Both the position numbers and the translations under genes were made by a program. From the NCBI GenBank assembly GCA_946410505.1, contig CAMKAP010000008.1, forward strand, positions 1 to 21,270: a stretch of 21,270 nucleotides of DNA, given 5' to 3'. The notes under the pieces were generated by a model, which did not search any database, was not told where the DNA came from, and saw only the letters and a program-made list of their open reading frames with translations. Shown here one piece after another: positions 562-19,616 of the stretch. Each line of letters begins with the position of its first letter. Within the stretch, counting starts at the first letter, position 1. This stretch comes from an uncultured Clostridia bacterium (GTDB lineage Bacteria > Bacillota_A > Clostridia > Oscillospirales > Oscillospiraceae).

Positions 562-590
562 TGCCCCCGCTGTCCAAGACAGCGGGGGCA
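562..590 (-). terminator. Rho-independent terminator of the LysM gene
   Basis: A perfect 12-bp stem (TGCCCCCGCTGT / ACAGCGGGGGCA) closes a 5-nt loop. It lies 16 nt beyond the stop codon of the LysM gene. The following tract on the minus strand (TTTCCATTCTTCC) is T-rich but interrupted. The hairpin also separates this transcript from the transporter promoter at 493-521. Confidence 0.7.
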
Positions 591-606: not shown

Positions 607-879
607 TCAGCGAAGAATGCGGGCGTAGATGACCAGCTTCTGACCAGCCATAATGAAGTTGGGATCCTTGATGCCGTTCCAGTCAACGATGTTCTGAACG
701 GTAACACCGAAACGAGGAGCAATGCCGGACAGGACGTCGCCAGCAGCCACGGTGTAAACGATATGATCGCCAACCTTGACATAGGTGCCCTTTGCGTAAT
801 CTCTCCAGGTCTTGCCGCCGCCGGAAACTTCTTCAACCTCAGCGTCGCTGATAGGGGTGACTTTCACTTCATCTGCCAT
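607..879 (-). CDS. LysM-domain small protein with a double-glycine (bacteriocin-type) leader
   Basis: This 90-residue protein has two parts. Residues 1-21 match the double-glycine leader consensus position by position: I10 (-12), E14 (-8), V15 (-7), V18 (-4), G20 and G21 (-2, -1). Such leaders are cut after the second Gly by C39-peptidase ABC exporters (PCATs). Residues about 39-86 form one LysM domain, starting IVYTVAAGDVLSGIAPRFG and ending near QKLVIYARI. LysM domains bind N-acetylglucosamine in peptidoglycan or chitin. The predicted mature product is 69 residues, has no Cys and is almost entirely the LysM module. I chose the ATG at 879 because AAGGAGGAT sits 8 nt before it; an in-frame TTG at 921 would add 14 residues but has no comparable site. 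No C39 exporter or modifying enzyme lies in the window. LysM is certain by eye; export by a PCAT is inference. It could instead be a cytoplasmic LysM/BON-type protein with a chance GG. Confidence 0.85.
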   Translation of the reverse strand: MADEVKVTPISDAEVEEVSGGGKTWRDYAKGTYVKVGDHIVYTVAAGDVLSGIAPRFGVTVQNIVDWNGIKDPNFIMAGQKLVIYARILR

Positions 880-1269
880 TGTAAATATCCTCCTTAATAT
901 ATTCACAAAAGAACGCTTCAAGGAAGGGTGGGCGATGATCGAAAACCGACATCAAAACGATCCTTCTCTGTCTGAATTCTTCCGTGTTTACAATTTACAT
1001 CGGGCCTTCACCGGCCCTGAACAATTAGCCTTTCTTTTTTCCGGCTTTTTGTTCTTCGTCTATTAATACGACGGATTCGGGAAGCTGGCCGATTTTTTTG
1101 AAATTTTTTCTTTTTCTGGATTGAACCGGTGTCTTTCCCAATTCCCGGGTTTACTATAACACGCTATGCCCAACAAATGTCCAGCAAATTGTAACGCTTT
1201 CAGAGTAGATTCGACAAATTCGCATAATCTTTGGATTTCTTAAGATTTTCAATCCGGGCTCTGATCCCA
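880..1269. other. Gene-free 390-base stretch: LysM leader region and regulator 3' flank
   Basis: No convincing gene lies here. Reading on the minus strand it holds the promoter at 1183-1153 and then about 270 nt of leader before the LysM ATG. The leader contains long A-rich runs and a compact hairpin GGGCC/GGCCC (1017-1002) that lacks a T-tract. The part from 1184 to 1269 is the AT-rich 3' flank of the regulator gene; I find no strong terminator in it. Confidence 0.5.
1153..1183 (-). promoter_or_regulatory. Candidate promoter for the LysM gene
   Basis: On the minus strand TGGACA (1183-1178), a 19-nt spacer and TATAGT (1158-1153) are seen. A TG one base before the -10 forms an extended -10, which can compensate for the long spacer. 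It implies a leader of about 270 nt, unusually long for a 90-residue protein. Confidence 0.4.
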
Positions 1270-2070
1270 TCAGATGCGCTCTCTCCGGTCTGTGAGGAAG
1301 GCTTCGGTAAGGCTCGCCCAGGAATAGGAGCTCATATATTCGCCCCGGTAGGAATTGACCGCCTCCGGGTCCCCCTTCAGGAAGCGGAACATATCACAGT
1401 CCATCATCTCCGGCCGGATGCGCATGAAGCCGCGCTTTCGCTCCAGGATCTCGCCGATGCCGTACTCATCCAGCGTATCGCATAGGCTGCGCACGATCAC
1501 GTCCAGCTGCTTCTGCCTGGCCCTGTCGTAGGTCTCATCCTCCCAGAGCGCGGCAAAGATCTGCGCGCGGGAAACGCTACCGCCCTGCCGGTCCACCAGA
1601 TAGGCCAGCACCTCTTTGGCCCTGGCGCGCCGGAACGCGACCGAGACGCCGTCCACCGCCACCACGAAGCTGCCGAAGGTCTGCACAGAAATATGCAGCG
1701 TCGCGTTTTTCTGATGGACGTCGAAGGCGTAGGACACCTCCGCTGCCAGACTCTCCCGGTTGACGGGCTTGAGAAGACAGCCTGCGGGGTGAACGGAAAA
1801 AAGCTCCGTCGGCACAAGCTGTGAATCGCTCATAAAGAGGATCGCCGTCTCCGGCTTTTCTTCCCGGAGTTTCTGTGCCAGACGAAGCCCGTCCAGATCG
1901 GGAAGGTCCAGATCCAGCAGCGCCAAATCTACCGGGTGCGTGTACGCCCAGTCCAGCGCCTCCTGCGTGGAGGCAAAACCCTGGACATCCTGCACCTGCG
2001 GCAGGATGCGGCAGATGGCCACCGTCTGCTCCAGCGCCTGTTTCTCCCGGTCCACACAGATCGCTCTCAT
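1270..2070 (-). CDS. Response regulator with SARP/AfsR-type winged-helix output domain
   Basis: This 266-residue protein has an N-terminal receiver domain (about 1-118). It shows an acidic site at D7, the phosphoacceptor D53 in LLDLDLPDLDG, S81 after strand 4 and the conserved K101-P102. Residues about 125-220 form a winged-helix DNA-binding domain of the OmpR/SARP type (FGSFVVAVDG, then AKEVLAYLV and the SRAQIFAALW segment). The tail (YRGEYMSSYSWA, 241-252) looks like the start of a bacterial transcriptional-activation (BTAD) domain that is cut short; this short form is common in clostridia. GAAGGGGAG precedes the ATG. It follows the MogA/MoaB gene by 27 nt, so the two are probably cotranscribed. 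No histidine kinase is adjacent, so its signal and targets are unknown. Confidence 0.85.
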   Translation of the reverse strand: MRAICVDREKQALEQTVAICRILPQVQDVQGFASTQEALDWAYTHPVDLALLDLDLPDLDGLRLAQKLREEKPETAILFMSDSQLVPTELFSVHPAGCLLKPVNRESLAAEVSYAFDVHQKNATLHISVQTFGSFVVAVDGVSVAFRRARAKEVLAYLVDRQGGSVSRAQIFAALWEDETYDRARQKQLDVIVRSLCDTLDEYGIGEILERKRGFMRIRPEMMDCDMFRFLKGDPEAVNSYRGEYMSSYSWASLTEAFLTDRRERI

Positions 2071-10353: not shown

Positions 10354-12300
10354 ATGGCAAACGAAGCAATGGAACAATACGCCGCCGCCCTCAAGGCAGG
10401 GCAGCGTTACTATAAAAATGCGGTCTCCCACGGCCGCCCGCCCTATCCCCCTGTGCTCGATGAGCTGACCCAGGGCGTCCCCCTCGTCGGGCAGGCCGAT
10501 CTGGGCCTCGTGAACGTGCCGTGTGAGCTGATTGCCGGCACCAAGACCGCCGGGCGCGTTTTCGCCCTGGCTGGGAACTTCATGCCGCTGCTGCCTGTGG
10601 GGAGCGAGTTTTCCACCAAGTGGATCGCCCTGTGCGATGCCCATCTCGGCAGCGAAGGCATTCGGGACCCCATCAAGTGCTATGAGTATTACGGGCGCTT
10701 TTACGTCCAGGAGGGCAACAAGCGGGCAAGCGTCCTCATGAGCTACGACGCGCCCACCGTCCCCGCCACGGTCACCCGTCTGATTCCCCAGTACAGCGAC
10801 GACGAATCCGTGCGTCTTTACTACGAGTTCATGGCCTTCTACGCGCTCTCCCGCCTTTACGGCGTGGAGTTTCGCCGTCTGGGCGACTACAGCCGCCTGC
10901 AGGCAGCTCTCGGCTTTGAGCAGGACCACACCTGGACTGAGGAGGAGCGCCGCCGCTTTGCCTCCGGCTTTACCTTCTTCAAGAGCGCCTACGCCAAATG
11001 CTCTCCCCGCAATCCCGAGATCACTGCCGCCGAGGCGCTGCTGGGCTGGCTGGATCTCTATGCCTTCTCTTCCCTGCGGGATCTGACGGCGCCACAGCTG
11101 TATCAGCAGTTGGACCGCATCTGGCCGGACATTGCCGCCAAGGCAGAGAGCGCGGCCATCCCTGTGAGCACCGAACCCGAGGTCAAGGGGCAGAGCGTGC
11201 TGCAGCGGCTGCGCCGCGTGACCCACAGCGACCGGATCGACATTGCCTTTCTCTATGCCTTTGATCCGGAAACCAGCGCCTGGACCCGCGCCCACGACGA
11301 GGGGCGGCGCTATCTGGAGCAGGTCATGGGCGAGCGGGTACACATCCGGGTGGAGCACGCCTACAACCATGATTATCTTGCCGCGATCGAGCGGGCCAGA
11401 GAAAACGGGGCCGATCTGGTCTTCGCCACCACCCCCGCCATGGCAGCCGACTGCCGCAAGGCCGCTGCGCTGCATCCGGAGCTGAAGATCCTGTGCTGCG
11501 CCCTGTCGAAGCCCTATACAGGCGTGCGCACATACTACACGCGAAACTATGAAGCCAAGTTCATCGCTGGTGTTATCGCCGGCATCATGGCGGGAGACTC
11601 GCCCATCGGCTATGTGGCCTACAGCCCGATCTACGGCGTACCGGCGGATATCAACGCCTTCGCGCTGGGAGCGCGGGCGACCAATCCCGGTGCAAAGATC
11701 CTGCTGCGCTGGACCTGCACCGACGGCAACGCCGTGCAGGAGCTGACGGAGCGCGGCGTGCACGTTTTCTCCAACCGGGACGTGGTGCGTCCTGGCTTTT
11801 CTCGCAGCGCGCTGGAGCTCGGCACCTACATGATCGGCAGCGACGGCAGCCGGATTCCCCTGGCCACTCCCATCTGGGAATGGGGCAAGCTCTACGAGCT
11901 GATCGTCAACAGCATTTTCAGTGGGGCCTGGGCGGATATTGAGCGCAGCCGCTCCACTCACTACTACTGGGGCATGGACAGCGGCGTGATCGACCTGCAT
12001 CTGGGTGAGGCGCTGCCCCCCGCCGTGCGCGCCCTGGGCACGATCCTCAAACGGGACTTTGCCGCGGGCTCCGTGCGTCCCTTCCGCATGGAGATGTATG
12101 ACCAGTCCGGGCTTCTGCGCTGGAAAGGCGAGGAATCGCTCTCTCCGGAGCAGATCATGAAGATGGACTGGCTCTGCGACAATGTGGAGGGCGAAATCCC
12201 GGGCTTTGACAAGATCCTGCCCATGTCCCGGGACACGGTGCGTCTGCTTGGCGTCTACGCGGACAGTCTCCCACCTGAAAAGGAGGCGCCGCAGCTGTGA
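10354..12300 (+). CDS. Cytoplasmic fusion: ParB/Srx-like domain plus BMP (PnrA-like) ligand-binding domain
   Basis: This 648-residue protein has no signal peptide, lipobox or membrane helix. Its N-terminal half (about 50-150) contains DPIKCYEYYGRFYVQEGNKR (105-124), the kind of fold seen in ParB/sulfiredoxin-like domains, where the G-N-K-R/G-x-x-R loop binds nucleotide phosphates. A helical linker (150-285) follows. Residues about 293-600 are a BMP domain, as in the purine-nucleoside lipoprotein PnrA/Med: VFATTPAMA, RNYEAKFIAGVIAG, IGYVAYSPIYGVPADINAF and the late WEWGKLYELIV. BMP proteins are normally exported ABC-transporter receptors; this one should stay in the cytoplasm and may sense a nucleoside or nucleotide. 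The ATG has AAGGAAAGGAT upstream. The next gene starts inside its stop codon. Domain calls are by eye; the ParB/Srx call is the less certain. Confidence 0.75.
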   Translation: MANEAMEQYAAALKAGQRYYKNAVSHGRPPYPPVLDELTQGVPLVGQADLGLVNVPCELIAGTKTAGRVFALAGNFMPLLPVGSEFSTKWIALCDAHLGSEGIRDPIKCYEYYGRFYVQEGNKRASVLMSYDAPTVPATVTRLIPQYSDDESVRLYYEFMAFYALSRLYGVEFRRLGDYSRLQAALGFEQDHTWTEEERRRFASGFTFFKSAYAKCSPRNPEITAAEALLGWLDLYAFSSLRDLTAPQLYQQLDRIWPDIAAKAESAAIPVSTEPEVKGQSVLQRLRRVTHSDRIDIAFLYAFDPETSAWTRAHDEGRRYLEQVMGERVHIRVEHAYNHDYLAAIERARENGADLVFATTPAMAADCRKAAALHPELKILCCALSKPYTGVRTYYTRNYEAKFIAGVIAGIMAGDSPIGYVAYSPIYGVPADINAFALGARATNPGAKILLRWTCTDGNAVQELTERGVHVFSNRDVVRPGFSRSALELGTYMIGSDGSRIPLATPIWEWGKLYELIVNSIFSGAWADIERSRSTHYYWGMDSGVIDLHLGEALPPAVRALGTILKRDFAAGSVRPFRMEMYDQSGLLRWKGEESLSPEQIMKMDWLCDNVEGEIPGFDKILPMSRDTVRLLGVYADSLPPEKEAPQL

Positions 12301-13079: not shown

Positions 13080-16000
13080 ATGAAGAAGAACAAAAAACTG
13101 CTGGATATCATCGGCGCAAGCTGCGGCATGTTTCTTGTCGCGGCGCTGATCATCAGCCTTATTTCCAGCGCCGTCGCCAGCGCGCCCCCCAAGGGTGCCG
13201 TCACGCTGACCGGCACCGCGCCCGGCCGCAACGCCGATGTGGCGGTGGAGGTCGTCACCGACGGCAGCACCATCGCCGGCGTCACCGTCACAGCCCATGA
13301 GGAGACCGAGGGCATCGGCACCATGGCCGTGGACCAGCTGCCCGCTGCCATCGTCGAGGCCAACAGTCTGGCGGTGGACAACGTCTCCGGCGCGTCCATC
13401 ACCTCCGAGGCCATCAAGGCCGCCGTGGCCGACGCTCTGACGGAGGGCGGCTTTGATCCCGCCGTCTTGGGCTATATCGCTGCCGCGCCCGCAGAGGAGA
13501 CCGCAGCCGCGCAAGCGCCGGCCGAGCCCGCCGCCCCCGCAGAGCCTGTCGAGATCCCGGCAGACGCGATCACCGAGACCGGCTCCTACAACGGCATTGA
13601 CGGTCCCGTGGTCACGCAGGTCACCGCGGACGCCGAGCGCATCTATGACGTTCAGGTCCTGGAGCAGAACGAGACCGTCGGCATCGGCTCCGTCGCCGTG
13701 GAGAAGCTGCCCGCCGCCATCGTCGCTGCCAATTCTCTGCTGGTGGACGACATCTCCGGCGCTACCGTCACCAGCACCGCCATCAAGAACGGCATCCGCG
13801 AAGCGCTGAACAAGGCCGGTCTGGATCCCGCTGTGTTTGAGGTGGAGCCCGAAAACGCCGGCGCACCGGCTGAGAAGACCGAAGAGACCCTTGACTGCGA
13901 TGTGGTCGTGGTCGGCGCAGGCGGTGCCGGTCTGACCGCTGCCGTGCGCGCCACCCAGCAGGGCGCGAAGGTCCTGGTCGTGGAGAAGATGCCCATCATC
14001 GGCGGCAACAGCCTGCGCGCCGAGGGCGGCATGAACGCGGCCGAGACCAAGGTGCAGGCCGAGCTGGGTCTCACCGATTCCACCGTTGAAAACTTCGTCG
14101 CCGACACCCTGCGTTTGGGCCACGATCTGGCCAACCCCGATCTGGTGCAGACCCTGGCCGAGAACAGCGCTGAGGCCGTTGACTGGCTCGACTCCATCGG
14201 CGCGCCGCTGACCAAGGTGGCTGCCACCGGCGGAACGGAGCACAAATATCTGCACAAGCCCGAGGACGGCCGCCCCGTGGGCAGCTATCTGGTGGAGAAG
14301 CTCAGCGCCTACGCCGAGCAGCTTGGCATTGAGATCAGGATCAACACCAAGGCCACCGAGATCCTGATGAGCGGCTCCCGCGCCTGCGGCATCAAGGCCG
14401 AAGACGACGAGCACATCTACACCATCAACGCCAAGGCCGTGGTGCTGGCCACCGGCGGCTTCGGCTCCAACTTCGAGCTGATGGCGAGCTACGATCCCTC
14501 CCTGGCTGACGCCGTCACCACCAACCACTCCGGCGCCCAGGGCGACGGCATCATGATGGCACAGGCCGTCGGCGCCGACACCGTGGACATGGAGCAGATC
14601 CAGCTGCATCCCACCGTCATCCAGCAGAACGGTCTGCTGGTGTCCGAGTCCGTGCGCAGCCACGGCGCCATCCTGGTCAATGCCGAGGGCAAGCGCTTTG
14701 TCAATGACATGGCCGGACGCGACGTGGTCTCCCAGGCCGAGCTCAAGCAGCCCGGCGCCTACGCCTTCATCGTCTTCGACCAGGGCCTGGTGGACGAAGT
14801 GGCGCTGACCCACAAGTTCATTGACGGCGGCTACGCCATCTCCGGCAAGACCTATGAGGAGCTGGCGAAGAACCTCGGGTTGGAGGGCGACGCGATCGGA
14901 AACTTCGTGGAAACCATGGAGAACTGGAACGCCGCTGTCGAGGCCGGTGAAGATAAGGACTTCGGCCGCAGCGCGGTCAGCATGATCGACATCTCCACCG
15001 CTCCCTACTACGCCATCAAGATCGCCCCGGGCATCCACCACACCATGGGCGGCATCAAGATCGACACCCAGGCTCAGGTTATCGACACCGACGGCTCTGT
15101 GATCCCCGGTCTCTTCGCCTGCGGCGAAACCACCGGCGGCATCCACGGCGGCAACCGTGTGGGCGGCAACGCCGTGTGTGACTTCATCGTCTTCGGCCGT
15201 ATCGCCGGCACCTCCGCGGCGGACTACGCCGCAGCCATCGCCCCGGCGGAGTACTCCTCCCAGGCCGATACCTTCACCGGCACCGGCGCCGGACGCAACG
15301 GCGATGTGAACGTGGAAGTCGTCGCCGACGCAAGCCATATCTACTCCATTGAAGTGACTTCCCATGAGGAGACCGAGGGCATCGGCTCCGTCGCTGTCGA
15401 AAAGCTCCCTGCCGCGATCATCGCTGCCCAGAGCCTGGACGTGGATGATGTCTCCGGCGCCACCATCACCTCGGCTGCCATCAAGGAAGCCGTTGGCGCG
15501 GCCCTGGCGGCCGGCGGCATTGATCCCGCCAAGCTCGTGCCCGGTGAAGCCCCTGCGGACGAGGCGGCTGCCGAGCCTCTGGGCGACCGAGTCTATGAGG
15601 CCGATGTGGTCGTCATCGGCGCGGGCGGCGCGGGCATGTCCGCCGCCATCACCGCGGCCGACGCGGGCATGGACGTCATCGTCGTGGAGAGCCAGCCCAT
15701 GGTGGGCGGCAACTCCGTGCGCTCCACGGGCGGCATGAACGCCGCGCCCACCGAGTGGCGCAATATGAACGAATTCGGCGAGAGCGCCGGCGTGGAGAGC
15801 ACGCTGGCCAAGGTCGAGAAATACCCCGACAACGCCCGCATTCAGGAGCTGGGCAAGATCGTTGCCAAGCAGTGGGCTGAGTATCAGGCCAATCCCGAAG
15901 GCTACTTCGATACGGTGGAGCTCTTCCAGCTCGACACGCTGATCGGCGGCGGCGGGCTCAACAATCCTGACCTGGTCCTCACGCTGGCCGAGCGCAGCGC

Positions 16001-17087
16001 GGACGCCATCAGCTGGCTCGACAGTTTGGATCCCGCTGTGATCCTGCACAATGTGGCCCAGTTCGGCGGTGCTTCCGTCAAGCGCATCCACCGCCCGGTG
16101 GACGAGAACGGCAAGACTCTCTCCGTCGGTGCCTACGTGGTGCCTCTGCTCCAGAAGAATCTGGAGAACCGCGGTGTCACCGTGTTACTGAGCACCACCG
16201 CCAACGAGATCGTGCGCGACAGCCTCGGCATCGTGCGCGGCATCGTCTGCACCGATGAAAACGGCAGCACCGTCAGCGTAAATGCTCCCGCTGTCGTCAT
16301 CGCCTCCGGCGGCTTCGGCGCGAACAATGACATGATCGCCTCTATCCGCCCCGAGCTGGACGGCTTCATCACCACCAACGCCCCCGGCATCCAGGGCCAG
16401 GGCATCCAGATGGCCCAGGCCATCGGAGCCGACACCGTGGATCTGGAGCAGATCCAGCTGCATCCCACTGTCCACGTACAGGGTACCGACGCTGTGCTGA
16501 TCACCGAGGGCCTGCGCGGCGACGGCGCGATCCTGGTCAACCAGGAGGGCGAGCGTTTCTTCGACGAGGTCTCCACCCGTGACAAGGTCTCTGCGGCGGA
16601 GTTTGAGCAGACCGGCGGCTACGCCTGGCTGATCGTGGACAGCCGCATGAGCGACGCCTCCAATGTCATCCAGGGCTATATCAGCAAGGGCTACGCCGAG
16701 AGCGGCGAGACCTGGGAAGCACTGGCTGAGGCCATCGGCGCTCCCGCCGATGCTCTGGCGGCCACCATGGAAAAGTGGAATGCCTGTGTGGAAGCCAAGG
16801 AAGACGCCGACTTCGGCCGCGTCTCCTTCGCCAATCCTCTGGATCAGGCTCCCTACTACGCCATCAAGGTCCAGCCCGGTGTCCATCACACCATGGGCGG
16901 CATTAAGATCGACAGCGCAGCCCAGGTCATCGACGCCGACGGCGCTGTGATCCCCGGCCTCTTCGCAGCGGGCGAGGTCACCGGCGGCGTGCACGGCAAC
17001 AACCGTCTCGGCGGCAACGCTGTGGCAGACTTTGTGATCTTCGGCCGCATCGCCGGCGCTTCCGCTGCGGAATACGCCAACCGCTGA
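13080..17087 (+). CDS. Exported flavoprotein reductase with three FMN-binding and two FAD (fumarate reductase-like) domains
   Basis: This 1335-residue protein starts with a signal or anchor segment (about 8-33). Domain order: FMN_bind 1 (about 40-125), FMN_bind 2 (about 155-250), FAD domain 1 (about 272-715), FMN_bind 3 (about 735-815), FAD domain 2 (about 842-1335). The FMN-binding domains carry SGA[ST]xT motifs with acceptors S106, T229 and T795, the sites where ApbE attaches FMN covalently. Both FAD domains have GAGGAG (279-284, 847-852) and the full fumarate-reductase set: His in HPT (H510, H1128), S/T-E (S522-E523, T1142-E1143), the acid Arg (R547, R1167), His in HHTMGG (H653, H1269) and Arg in NR[VL]GGN (R693, R1309). 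In half 1, spacings 12, 13 and 37 after HPT equal those of Shewanella FccA. GGGAGGA precedes the ATG. Likely role: terminal reduction of fumarate or a similar enoate outside the membrane; substrate not proven. Confidence 0.9.
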   Translation: MKKNKKLLDIIGASCGMFLVAALIISLISSAVASAPPKGAVTLTGTAPGRNADVAVEVVTDGSTIAGVTVTAHEETEGIGTMAVDQLPAAIVEANSLAVDNVSGASITSEAIKAAVADALTEGGFDPAVLGYIAAAPAEETAAAQAPAEPAAPAEPVEIPADAITETGSYNGIDGPVVTQVTADAERIYDVQVLEQNETVGIGSVAVEKLPAAIVAANSLLVDDISGATVTSTAIKNGIREALNKAGLDPAVFEVEPENAGAPAEKTEETLDCDVVVVGAGGAGLTAAVRATQQGAKVLVVEKMPIIGGNSLRAEGGMNAAETKVQAELGLTDSTVENFVADTLRLGHDLANPDLVQTLAENSAEAVDWLDSIGAPLTKVAATGGTEHKYLHKPEDGRPVGSYLVEKLSAYAEQLGIEIRINTKATEILMSGSRACGIKAEDDEHIYTINAKAVVLATGGFGSNFELMASYDPSLADAVTTNHSGAQGDGIMMAQAVGADTVDMEQIQLHPTVIQQNGLLVSESVRSHGAILVNAEGKRFVNDMAGRDVVSQAELKQPGAYAFIVFDQGLVDEVALTHKFIDGGYAISGKTYEELAKNLGLEGDAIGNFVETMENWNAAVEAGEDKDFGRSAVSMIDISTAPYYAIKIAPGIHHTMGGIKIDTQAQVIDTDGSVIPGLFACGETTGGIHGGNRVGGNAVCDFIVFGRIAGTSAADYAAAIAPAEYSSQADTFTGTGAGRNGDVNVEVVADASHIYSIEVTSHEETEGIGSVAVEKLPAAIIAAQSLDVDDVSGATITSAAIKEAVGAALAAGGIDPAKLVPGEAPADEAAAEPLGDRVYEADVVVIGAGGAGMSAAITAADAGMDVIVVESQPMVGGNSVRSTGGMNAAPTEWRNMNEFGESAGVESTLAKVEKYPDNARIQELGKIVAKQWAEYQANPEGYFDTVELFQLDTLIGGGGLNNPDLVLTLAERSADAISWLDSLDPAVILHNVAQFGGASVKRIHRPVDENGKTLSVGAYVVPLLQKNLENRGVTVLLSTTANEIVRDSLGIVRGIVCTDENGSTVSVNAPAVVIASGGFGANNDMIASIRPELDGFITTNAPGIQGQGIQMAQAIGADTVDLEQIQLHPTVHVQGTDAVLITEGLRGDGAILVNQEGERFFDEVSTRDKVSAAEFEQTGGYAWLIVDSRMSDASNVIQGYISKGYAESGETWEALAEAIGAPADALAATMEKWNACVEAKEDADFGRVSFANPLDQAPYYAIKVQPGVHHTMGGIKIDSAAQVIDADGAVIPGLFAAGEVTGGVHGNNRLGGNAVADFVIFGRIAGASAAEYANR

Positions 17088-17501: not shown

Positions 17502-19616
17502 TTATGAAAAAGATTTCATAACCTCTCTCAGCGTCTCACAGACATAATCCACATCCTCATCCGACAGGCGTGTATGCAGCGGCAGCGTGATCAGATTGTG
17601 ATAATAATCGTAGGCATTGGGATACGCCGAGCAGTCTGTGCCATACGCCGTCATCAGAGGGAGCGGCTTGTAGTGGACATTGGTAGCCACACCGCGTTCC
17701 GCCATCTTCTCGATGATTTTGTTGCGCTGCTGCTCATCGATCCCGGGAATCCGGATCAGGAACAAGTGGTTCGAGCTGTCCATAGATTCCGTATGATGCT
17801 CAAGATGTGAAATTCCCAGTTCATCACATACGGCGTTGTACTTGTTTATGATCGCGACGCGGCGTTCCAGCAATCCGAGATAACGGTCCAACTGGCGAAG
17901 ACCGATCGCCGCCATGATGTCCGTCATGTTGCATTTGTACCACGGCCCGATAATATCGTATTCCCAGGCGCCGATCCTGGTCTTGGCCAAGGCATCCTTA
18001 TTCTGCCCGTGCAGAGACAGGAGCTGATACATCTTGTAGATTTCCGCGTTATCCACATCCTTCACCGGGTTCCATGCGGAGGCTCCGCCTTCGGCAGTCG
18101 TAAAGTTTTTGACCGCATGGAAGGAAAAGGAGGTAAAATCTGCGATTGCACCGACATATTTCTTTTCACCGCCAACCGTTCGGCTCGCCCCAAGCGCATG
18201 AGCCGCGTCACATACGATCGCCACGCGGCCGATGCCTTTCTGAATGCGGGAGGAAAGAATCGCAAGCGGAGTAGAGGAATCATTCATTGGCCGGAAAAGG
18301 TGCTTATTTCTCTCGACAATCTCAAAAATCCGGTCATAGTCGCACACAATGCCGCCGAGATCTACGGGCACGATCGCCTTGGTTTTGGGGGTAATGGCAG
18401 CTTCCAAAGCCTCATAATCCATTTCCGGGCAATGTGTTGCCGCGTCGCCGTCCTTCTGGATATCTACGAATTTGACAGTGGCGCCGCAATGGATCGCTGC
18501 ACTCGCACTTGCAGTATAAGTATAGGCGGGGACGATGACTTCGTCCCCCGGGCCAATACCCAGGATTCTCAAATTGAGTTCCTCGGCCGCTGTCGCGGAA
18601 TTAAGGCAGACGACCCTGTTGTTCCACCTCGCCTGATCTCCTTCGGTATCCACATCGGTTTTTCCGGTTTCAATATAGGCAGCAAGTCTTCTCTCCAGGA
18701 GCTTTGTACGCGGTCCGGTGGTAATCCAGCCGCTCTTGAGGGCTTCAACCACCTCACCGATCTCACTCTCAGAAATGTCGGGAGGGCTGAAAGGAATCCT
18801 TCTCAGGCAGTTTTGCTCCGGCCCCTTCACGACATCTTCCATACCTGTGAACTGGTCACTCTCACTGGAGAAATCAAAAAAGCTGGAATGATCCCGGTAA
18901 AAGATATGTCGTTCATCACAGATTGCCTTGATTCTTTCTCTCGACTCATTGTTAAGTTCAGGCTCCGCCAGAAAAACGCATTTGATCGCATGACGTTTTA
19001 AGACATCCACTAATTCATCTTTTCCGTAAACCTTGATCCCATCGATCTGCTTTCCGTCGGAATTGTTATCCGGGTCAACCATGCATACCACGCGGAAGGA
19101 AAGGCCTTCCTGAACCATGCGCATGATCTGAACCCCAGGTTCCCTGACACCGACCACAAGAGCGTTACCGGTCTTTTTATTGTTCCTTCGCTTCTCCATA
19201 ATGAAAAAGCGATACATAAACCGGGGCAAAGAGATAAGCACAAACTGGAATGCAGCCCCAAGCATATAATACGTTATCGGCATGCGGTGAAAGAACAAAA
19301 GCGTGCCGGCAACCTGAACGGCTGTAGAAACAGCTGAGGCACCGATAATCCGGTTCATATCATCGATCCCGGCGTATCGCCACAGGCCGTTGTAGAGCTT
19401 GAATGCAGCAAAAATAATGATGCATGCCACGGTATACCACGGCGCAAACTTATAGAAAGTATTGAAAAAATATCCCAACGGACTGGTTTGGGAACCCGAA
19501 ACTCGATCAATCAGGCTTCTGAGTACAAGCGCCAGATAATACGCAAAATTCACGGAAACAAGGTCGAGCAGCAATACCCACAGATCATTTTTCAGTGCTT
19601 TCTTGATGTCTTTCAT
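17502..19616 (-). CDS. Fusion of CapD/PglF-type membrane and nucleotide-binding N-terminus to a DegT/DnrJ/EryC1/StrS aminotransferase
   Basis: This 704-residue protein has two unrelated halves. Residues 1-140 contain four membrane segments (about 12-33, 58-74, 90-109, 115-135), ending RFMYRFF as in FlaA1/CapD-type dehydratases. Residues 150-270 are the Rossmann-like domain that follows in those proteins (NALVVGVREPG, VCMVDPDN, IDGIKVYG), but its glycine loop is degenerate (G156, G161; middle Gly is Arg). The dehydratase domain is absent. Residues 273-704 are a complete PLP sugar aminotransferase: LNSATAAEELNL, PAYTYTAS, D470 in VCDAAHALGA and Schiff-base K503 in SFSFHAVKNFT, then NVHYKPLPL. 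Such enzymes aminate nucleotide-4-keto sugars, as PglE does beside PglF. GAGGAATGTACG precedes the ATG. The gene is clearly less GC-rich than its neighbours, suggesting transfer. Likely role: membrane-anchored amino-sugar synthesis for surface glycan. Confidence 0.88.
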   Translation of the reverse strand: MKDIKKALKNDLWVLLLDLVSVNFAYYLALVLRSLIDRVSGSQTSPLGYFFNTFYKFAPWYTVACIIIFAAFKLYNGLWRYAGIDDMNRIIGASAVSTAVQVAGTLLFFHRMPITYYMLGAAFQFVLISLPRFMYRFFIMEKRRNNKKTGNALVVGVREPGVQIMRMVQEGLSFRVVCMVDPDNNSDGKQIDGIKVYGKDELVDVLKRHAIKCVFLAEPELNNESRERIKAICDERHIFYRDHSSFFDFSSESDQFTGMEDVVKGPEQNCLRRIPFSPPDISESEIGEVVEALKSGWITTGPRTKLLERRLAAYIETGKTDVDTEGDQARWNNRVVCLNSATAAEELNLRILGIGPGDEVIVPAYTYTASASAAIHCGATVKFVDIQKDGDAATHCPEMDYEALEAAITPKTKAIVPVDLGGIVCDYDRIFEIVERNKHLFRPMNDSSTPLAILSSRIQKGIGRVAIVCDAAHALGASRTVGGEKKYVGAIADFTSFSFHAVKNFTTAEGGASAWNPVKDVDNAEIYKMYQLLSLHGQNKDALAKTRIGAWEYDIIGPWYKCNMTDIMAAIGLRQLDRYLGLLERRVAIINKYNAVCDELGISHLEHHTESMDSSNHLFLIRIPGIDEQQRNKIIEKMAERGVATNVHYKPLPLMTAYGTDCSAYPNAYDYYHNLITLPLHTRLSDEDVDYVCETLREVMKSFS

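Follow-up and report, generated by a model that had tools for sequence, protein, structure and literature searches.

A LysM module behind a double-glycine leader and its association with NHLM-type exporters in Clostridia

RESULTS

The LysM gene and its product

The DNA analysed here (the window, meaning the whole stretch of 21,270 nt from an uncultured Clostridia bacterium) carries a short LysM gene on its minus strand, together with putative control elements and a response regulator gene. The following features were assigned, all of them on the minus strand:

562..590, minus: GC-rich, terminator-like 13-bp hairpin downstream of the LysM gene
607..879, minus: gene for the LysM precursor with a double-glycine (GG) leader, 90 aa, an open reading frame with an ATG start
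628..756, minus: LysM domain, residues 42-84, assigned from Pfam, an AlphaFold2 model and profile matches to solved domains
817..879, minus: double-glycine leader, residues 1-21, with predicted cleavage after G21, assigned from the published consensus
880..1146, minus: putative 5' leader RNA of about 265 nt, its start placed from the -10 element
889..895, minus: strong ribosome-binding site, AAGGAGG
1153..1158, minus: putative -10 element, TATAGT, with a TG extension
1166..1184, minus: direct repeat CTGGACATTTGTTGGGCAT with an 11-bp period, putative response-regulator operator
1270..2070, minus: response regulator (Response_reg and Trans_reg_C), candidate controller of the LysM gene

The encoded protein begins with MADEVKVTPISDAEVEEVSGG, followed by a basic 69-residue module, and the initial annotation had read it as a double-glycine leader placed ahead of a LysM domain. 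That reading was borne out. All six scored leader positions, namely I10 (-12), E14 (-8), V15 (-7), V18 (-4), G20 and G21, fit the leader consensus of peptidase-containing ABC transporters (PCATs), L(-12)xxxE(-8)L(-7)xxxxGG, in which the residue at -4 gives specificity (excerpt of PMC6959990), and Pfam matched LysM (PF01476) with an E value of 1.9e-15 and 57 bits, as compared with a cut-off of 20.9. By its sequence, the window protein is a LysM precursor bearing a GG leader, confirming the observation. Among 20,000 shuffled versions of the protein, 21 had the strict leader motif within their first 45 residues, and none of 20,000 reached the score of the window protein against a leader profile, the latter comparison being circular because the profile was trained on relatives. 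A Sec-like hydrophobic core was absent, the best 8-residue Kyte-Doolittle mean being 0.3 for windows starting at residues 1-30. No nitrile-hydratase or Nif11 family was found among the 14 NCBIfam matches of the protein (E up to 1), and the leader, at 21 residues, is not of the long NHLP/Nif11 type.

The mature part after the leader has 69 aa, a mass of 7.6 kDa and a pI of 9.7. AlphaFold2 modelled the whole protein with a mean pLDDT of 70 and with blocks of 78-86 over residues 31-90. The leader was modelled at low confidence with a short helix at residues 12-15; for comparison, PCAT leaders are helical from -10 to -4 when bound. The predicted LysM fold is beta-alpha-alpha-beta with one extra N-terminal strand (residues 32-36). 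Profile comparison of the sequence placed it nearest to the solved domains of the fungal effector Ecp6 (E 2.1e-19) and of wall hydrolases such as LytE; Foldseek ranked Ecp6 and a T. thermophilus endopeptidase at the top, with no match below E 0.001. Residues G47, D48, L50, W67 and I76 are invariant in our alignment A5. Codon adaptation of the gene was only moderately high, at the 78th percentile for the window and the 81st for its closest relative (genome G001) among 120 genes, of which one encoding a GG-leader CW_7 peptide ranked highest.

Elsewhere in the window, a 1335-aa protein (13080-17087, plus strand) contains three stretches each of FAD_binding_2 and FMN_bind and is apparently a tandem fused flavin reductase, a 704-aa protein (17502-19616, minus strand) fuses a CoA_binding_3-type N-terminal part to a DegT/DnrJ/EryC1 aminotransferase, and a 648-aa protein (10354-12300, plus strand) has a Bmp/PnrA-type substrate-binding domain at residues 308-548, the rest giving no Pfam match at E 0.001.

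Conservation of the leader among homologues

In total 219 homologues were found, and the leader was examined in the best 120 of these. Every one of the 120 had a GG ending a short leader and a hydrophobic residue at -4, and 116 had the strict motif, ending at residue 15-21, with Glu at -8 in 114, Leu at -7 in 109 and Val at -4 in 114 of the 116. Positions -12, -8, -7, -4 and GG were nearly invariant among the 120, the leader varying in length upstream of -12. The initial annotation had named free variation of the first 21 residues among close homologues as evidence against its proposal; near-invariance of the leader positions was found instead.

The closest relative is encoded in G001 (contig CACYHB010000005.1, MAG RUG11929), with a 99% identical protein and the same gene order as in the window, that is, response regulator, LysM gene and a counterpart of the Vut_1 transporter of the window. 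As a separate observation, 81 of 85 LysM-gene codons were identical between window positions 607-879 and L048:9898-10170, from two species, as compared with 68-80% for four other shared genes; recombination, codon bias or an RNA constraint may account for this identity. We also noted a 126-aa LysM protein (L196:12322-12702, minus strand) with two successive GG-leader-like segments ahead of the LysM domain.

Co-occurrence with an NHLM-type exporter

No exporter gene lies within the 21,270-nt window. When the search for C39-peptidase exporters proposed in the initial annotation was run in relatives, such exporters were present in four of the five genomes encoding relatives (G001 to G005), and an NHLM exporter in every LysM-positive genome of the two samples detailed below; the fifth, G004, a possibly incomplete MAG, had LysM genes and no C39 match. 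Lack of a C39 exporter had been the other outcome named in the initial annotation as refuting its proposal, and in these relatives it was not borne out. The exporters of G001, G003 and G005 passed the TIGR03796 cut-off and that of G002 clustered with them. At the G003 locus (L035) the scores were 936 bits for TIGR03796 (cut-off 853) and 725 bits for TIGR03797 (cut-off 709). The HlyD-like partner at this locus, of 138 aa, matched TIGR03794 in its N-terminal part only, with 27.6 bits as compared with a cut-off of 156.2, and a full-length HlyD-type partner was not found there. The Gln, Cys, His and Asp of C39 peptidases were visible by eye in those 41 of 81 clustered ABC proteins that have the peptidase motif.

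Two samples of genomes were then compared. Among 41 genomes of the genus of G005, using a LysM profile limit (E<=1e-9) set before the exporter search, 22 exceeded the TIGR03796 cut-off; the exporter was present in all 20 LysM-positive genomes and these LysM genes were absent from all 19 exporter-free ones. The LysM matches spanned the leader in 12 of these 20, and in the other eight the GG leader was read directly in the LysM gene (L200 included). Among 300 genomes of the family of G001, 34 exceeded the cut-off, and these included all five genomes with LysM and all seven with GG-CW_7 genes. The corresponding P values, 9.4e-10 (Fisher) for the genus sample, 8.8e-5 for its leader-spanning matches alone, 1.4e-5 for LysM in the family sample and 1.3e-7 for CW_7, overstate the evidence because the sampled genomes and stretches are related. 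Class-wide, in 391 genomes, leader-spanning LysM proteins at E up to 1e-12 were found in G001 only. Nine of 26 leader-spanning LysM genes lay within 10 kb of an exporter, the other 17 being farther away or on other contigs. The best reading of these data is that the GG-LysM genes encode cargo of a lineage-restricted secretion system.

A second NHLM exporter of G001 (L041, on contig C50), with a short GG peptide and a 361-aa CxxxCxxC protein nearby, perhaps belongs to a separate modified-peptide system.

Further GG-leader modules beside the exporter

From 55 stretches around exporters and LysM genes, 872 proteins were called by a simple script, and 105 of these were short proteins with a GG-leader pattern, including a few visibly chance matches in membrane proteins. 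The initial annotation had suggested looking for other short proteins with the same leader, and several such families came to light: LysM proteins, some of them shorter (58 proteins from 32 stretches), tandem CW_7 repeats (23 from 20), a beta-sandwich family (8 from 7) and a fourth family (4 from 4). One operon (L164) encodes CW_7, short LysM, long LysM, STAS, HlyD-like, PCAT, second ABC and fourth-family proteins, followed by a protein of a cluster whose representative is DUF218. Pfam confirmed CW_7 or LysM in the tested cluster representatives, the CW_7 cargo having two PF08230 repeats (E 3.4e-28). When scored with the leader profile built on LysM proteins, all 23 CW_7, all eight beta-sandwich and all four fourth-family proteins exceeded the 95th percentile for 779 other proteins. 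In protein databases, the leader was strict in 31 and loose in 65 of 68 homologues of the CW_7 peptide, and strict in 32 and loose in 44 of 47 beta-sandwich homologues.

The beta-sandwich model resembled parts of proteins from tailed phages. A siphovirus protein, itself uncharacterised, was its best match (E 4.8e-8, TM 0.73 by query), and a match to a protein with a name, a baseplate wedge protein, had E 3.5e-4. Genes of this family lie at L002:10378-10821 and L035:6267-6707, both on the minus strand, and in its homologues P0166 and P0168 a hydrophobic N-terminus replaces the GG leader. Given the LysM, CW_7 and beta-sandwich identities, the cargo is made up of modules that in other settings are known from wall hydrolases, lysins or tailed phages. 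GG peptides of another kind, such as cysteine-rich, ribbon-like ones in L172, L173 and L176, are encoded at other NHLM loci of the family sample, and the set of wall modules therefore looks like a speciality of one lineage.

Annotation of cluster representatives placed a D-Ala-D-Ala dipeptidase and a DUF218 protein among the neighbouring families. Four stretches (L039, L040, L166 and L194) have the same trio next to exporter and CW_7 genes: a DUF7005-cluster protein, an ECF-like sigma factor and a peptide of about 68 aa with a GG close to its C-terminus. A Cache-sensor protein of the SpoIIE-phosphatase/HATPase type (L164:4477-7062, plus strand) belongs to a cluster (c6) that recurs with STAS proteins at exporter loci, hinting at a second, partner-switching layer of control there.

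Promoter, direct repeat and regulator

The direct repeat CTGGACATTTGTTGGGCAT (TGGACA) sits at the -35 position, ahead of the extended -10, and both elements are recognisable in G001 and G002. We regard this as a putative promoter only, since a consensus -35 is absent and a sigma-70 scan did not list the site among its three promoter-like ones (shuffle mean 0.9). The putative leader RNA is largely conserved in G001 and partly in G002; its folding was weakly unusual (z -2.1), and the single match in an Rfam search was at chance level. The hairpin at 562-590 was listed on both strands, as one of three terminator-like sites in the region (shuffle mean 2.1). As to the long leader RNA and terminator described in the initial annotation, the putative promoter would imply an RNA of about 265 nt, and the hairpin keeps its stem pairing through base changes in G001; the minus-strand T-run after it is weak.

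The repeat pattern TGGACATNTNTTGGRCA, which was tuned after the window and its relatives had been seen, had 15 exact occurrences in the 55 stretches and none in any of five Markov simulations. When one mismatch was tolerated, 16 of 183 LysM, regulator, HlyD, STAS, CW_7 and XRE-regulator genes had it in the 400 bp upstream, as compared with 3 of 689 others, with one site counted for two genes and some stretches coming from close relatives; for CW_7 genes in these stretches the count was 0 of 23. Whole-genome searches of the genus sample gave 12 exact sites in six genomes, all of them exporter-positive, and 0 for a reversed-pattern control. The 19 exporter-free genomes had no exact site, nor did the other 16 of the 22 exporter-positive ones. 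All 12 sites lie at loci of this system, the next gene being GG-LysM in five cases, a response regulator in three, an exporter operon in two, an XRE-type regulator beside an exporter in one and, in one, a gene for 94 aa that lies in an exporter stretch and is itself followed by STAS. One site precedes a GG-LysM gene (G317:C26:69429; Pfam LysM E 2.8e-8) that the profile search at 1e-9 had not listed.

A period of 11 bp is typical of OmpR/PhoB-type regulators. The window regulator shares 45-54% identity with 12 regulators from eight of the exporter stretches, and near 30% with a second subgroup. From its position, period and company, the repeat is the putative operator of the neighbouring regulator, and it is fairly likely that LysM cargo, regulator and exporter form one regulon. 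The independently controlled unit of the initial annotation needs amending to that extent: the gene does seem to have its own promoter, but in relatives the repeat also precedes regulator and exporter genes.

DISCUSSION

Taken as a whole, our preferred explanation, to which we assign a probability of about 0.65, is that the window gene encodes a bare LysM module exported by an NHLM-type system under two-component control and coating the wall of its producer. The NHLM-type peptidase-containing ABC transporter would recognise residues 10-21 of the precursor, cut after Gly20-Gly21 and export the 69-residue LysM, which would bind peptidoglycan or another GlcNAc-containing glycan outside the cell. 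The same exporter would also ship CW_7 (Cpl-7) tandem repeats, shorter LysM proteins and the phage-protein-like beta-sandwich, and the two-component regulator would switch LysM cargo, itself and the exporter through the direct-repeat operator. Support from the side of sequence comes from the leader, the LysM fold, the exporter association, the leader shared by unrelated modules and the repeat in common. That the precursor is cleaved and secreted as GG-leader cargo is highly likely, and the released module probably binds the cell wall. Its export is plausible since PCAT1 handles cargo of near-equal size unfolded and since the E. coli exporter for microcin V tolerates a very wide variety of small proteins, with length as the main limit (excerpt of PMC10231218); LysM would have to fold after export, because PCAT1 cargo appears unstructured inside the transporter (excerpt of PMC6959990).

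Among known systems, NHLM/NHLP (TIGR03796, TIGR03797, TIGR03794; excerpt of PMC2887384) agrees with the present one in that the peptidase-transporter and second transporter of the relatives pass its curated cut-offs, in that Gly-Gly cleavage is expected and in that precursors can be encoded at a distance from the exporter, a point which that paper makes about its own families. It differs in its cargo, which has a nitrile-hydratase or Nif11 leader and a hypervariable modified core in contrast to the short leader and folded wall-binding module found here, and in its HlyD partner, the 138-aa HlyD-like protein being far below the TIGR03794 cut-off. The PCAT1 substrate CtA of Clostridium thermocellum (24 + 66 residues, as compared with 21 + 69) has the same leader consensus, with Met at -4 where the window protein has Val; the excerpt of PMC6959990 names no wall-binding function for CtA. 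The CW_7 module of the endolysin Cpl-7 binds the muropeptide analogue GMDP and serves a lytic enzyme (excerpt of PMC5705596), while in the sister cargo CW_7 stands alone behind an export leader. Fungal LysM effectors (Ecp6, 4b8v; Z. tritici, 6q40; Mg1LysM) are likewise secreted LysM proteins without an enzyme and are the nearest solved relatives of the domain, and Mg1LysM, which has a single LysM, shields hyphae against chitinases (excerpt of PMC7337405). The window module differs from them in its bacterial origin, its GG-leader export and a likely preference for peptidoglycan rather than chitin; the analogy is one of working, confined to the LysM domain, and we claim no wider kinship.

An accidental resemblance to a leader, in a cytoplasmic or otherwise targeted LysM protein, would agree with the absence of an exporter from the window and with the LysM genes of G004, which has no C39 match, but it is very improbable in view of the near-perfect retention of the leader, the co-occurrence with the exporter and the presence of this leader on unrelated modules of a single operon. 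The cargo could alternatively serve competition, released LysM and CW_7 modules binding the peptidoglycan of neighbours and blocking growth, division or hydrolases; it would then be a novel type of bacteriocin, having neither enzyme nor pore. Leader and exporter are indeed of the bacteriocin type, some genomes have several LysM paralogues and one homologue is termed bacteriocin-like by a source. We nevertheless find this unlikely, the sequences being conserved rather than hypervariable (mean column identity 74% in A5), the module lacking a killing domain, and the listed operons revealing no dedicated immunity gene when cluster representatives were annotated, although an unannotated small gene could be one. 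Class II bacteriocins have a short, variable and unstructured core peptide and a cognate immunity gene; the window protein, as a conserved LysM with a predicted fold, has no such core.

Use as a scaffold or adhesin, anchoring other secreted proteins on the wall or gluing cells into aggregates, would find its candidate partners in large secreted proteins encoded between the modules, and a cluster of 16 large proteins with signal-like N-termini (c7, in 15 stretches) does alternate with LysM genes; LysM/YG proteins also contribute to the biofilm of Lactobacillus reuteri (excerpt of PMC3873254). No such neighbour lies beside the LysM copy of the window, however, and the module has no second domain beyond the added N-terminal strand of the model, so that this role appears rather unlikely. 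A signalling role, by which the exported module, alone or with wall fragments, is sensed by a neighbouring histidine kinase that then drives the response regulator controlling the same genes, could draw on five exporter stretches (L035, L183, L185, L186 and L191) in which a His_kinase gene directly adjoins the regulator family, and on the repeat preceding regulator and LysM genes alike. We judge it distinctly improbable: a folded, cationic wall binder of 7.6 kDa would be a poor diffusible signal, regulator and LysM gene are flanked in the window by a MoCF-domain gene and the Vut_1 transporter and not by a kinase, and the exporter is common to CW_7 and beta-sandwich cargo.

Returning to the exported wall-binding module, the LysM cargo has no catalytic domain, pore or variable core, and the role that best fits LysM, CW_7 and phage-type modules taken together is the occupation of bacterial surface glycans. 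The likeliest use of the module would be to coat the wall of its own producer, as a shield against hydrolases such as lysozyme, phage lysins or the enzymes of neighbours, and it would then work like the fungal LysM effectors. The own wall is favoured over a foreign one because of the conservation, the wall-type neighbour families and the fungal precedent, without any of these being decisive, and we put self-coating at somewhat below even odds. More speculative, and at present doubtful, is a wall-armouring system in which a bacteriocin-type exporter has been converted to deliver bare surface-binding modules under two-component control, the cell occupying sites on its own wall with LysM, CW_7 and beta-sandwich modules and thereby blocking hydrolases and phages. 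Such a system would be previously undescribed, its modules being of the sort with which phage lysins and tailed phages engage the bacterial surface.

The cargo of double-glycine exporters is usually taken to be bacteriocins, pheromones or modified peptides, and here a well-defined exporter group co-occurs, and has operons in common, with plain cell-wall-binding modules. The direct repeat predicts further cargo, one genome-wide site having already pointed to a GG-LysM gene missing from the list of the profile search. If our reading is confirmed, some NHLM loci would be mislabelled as bacteriocin clusters, and the non-covalent placement of wall proteins without a Sec signal or sortase would become testable.
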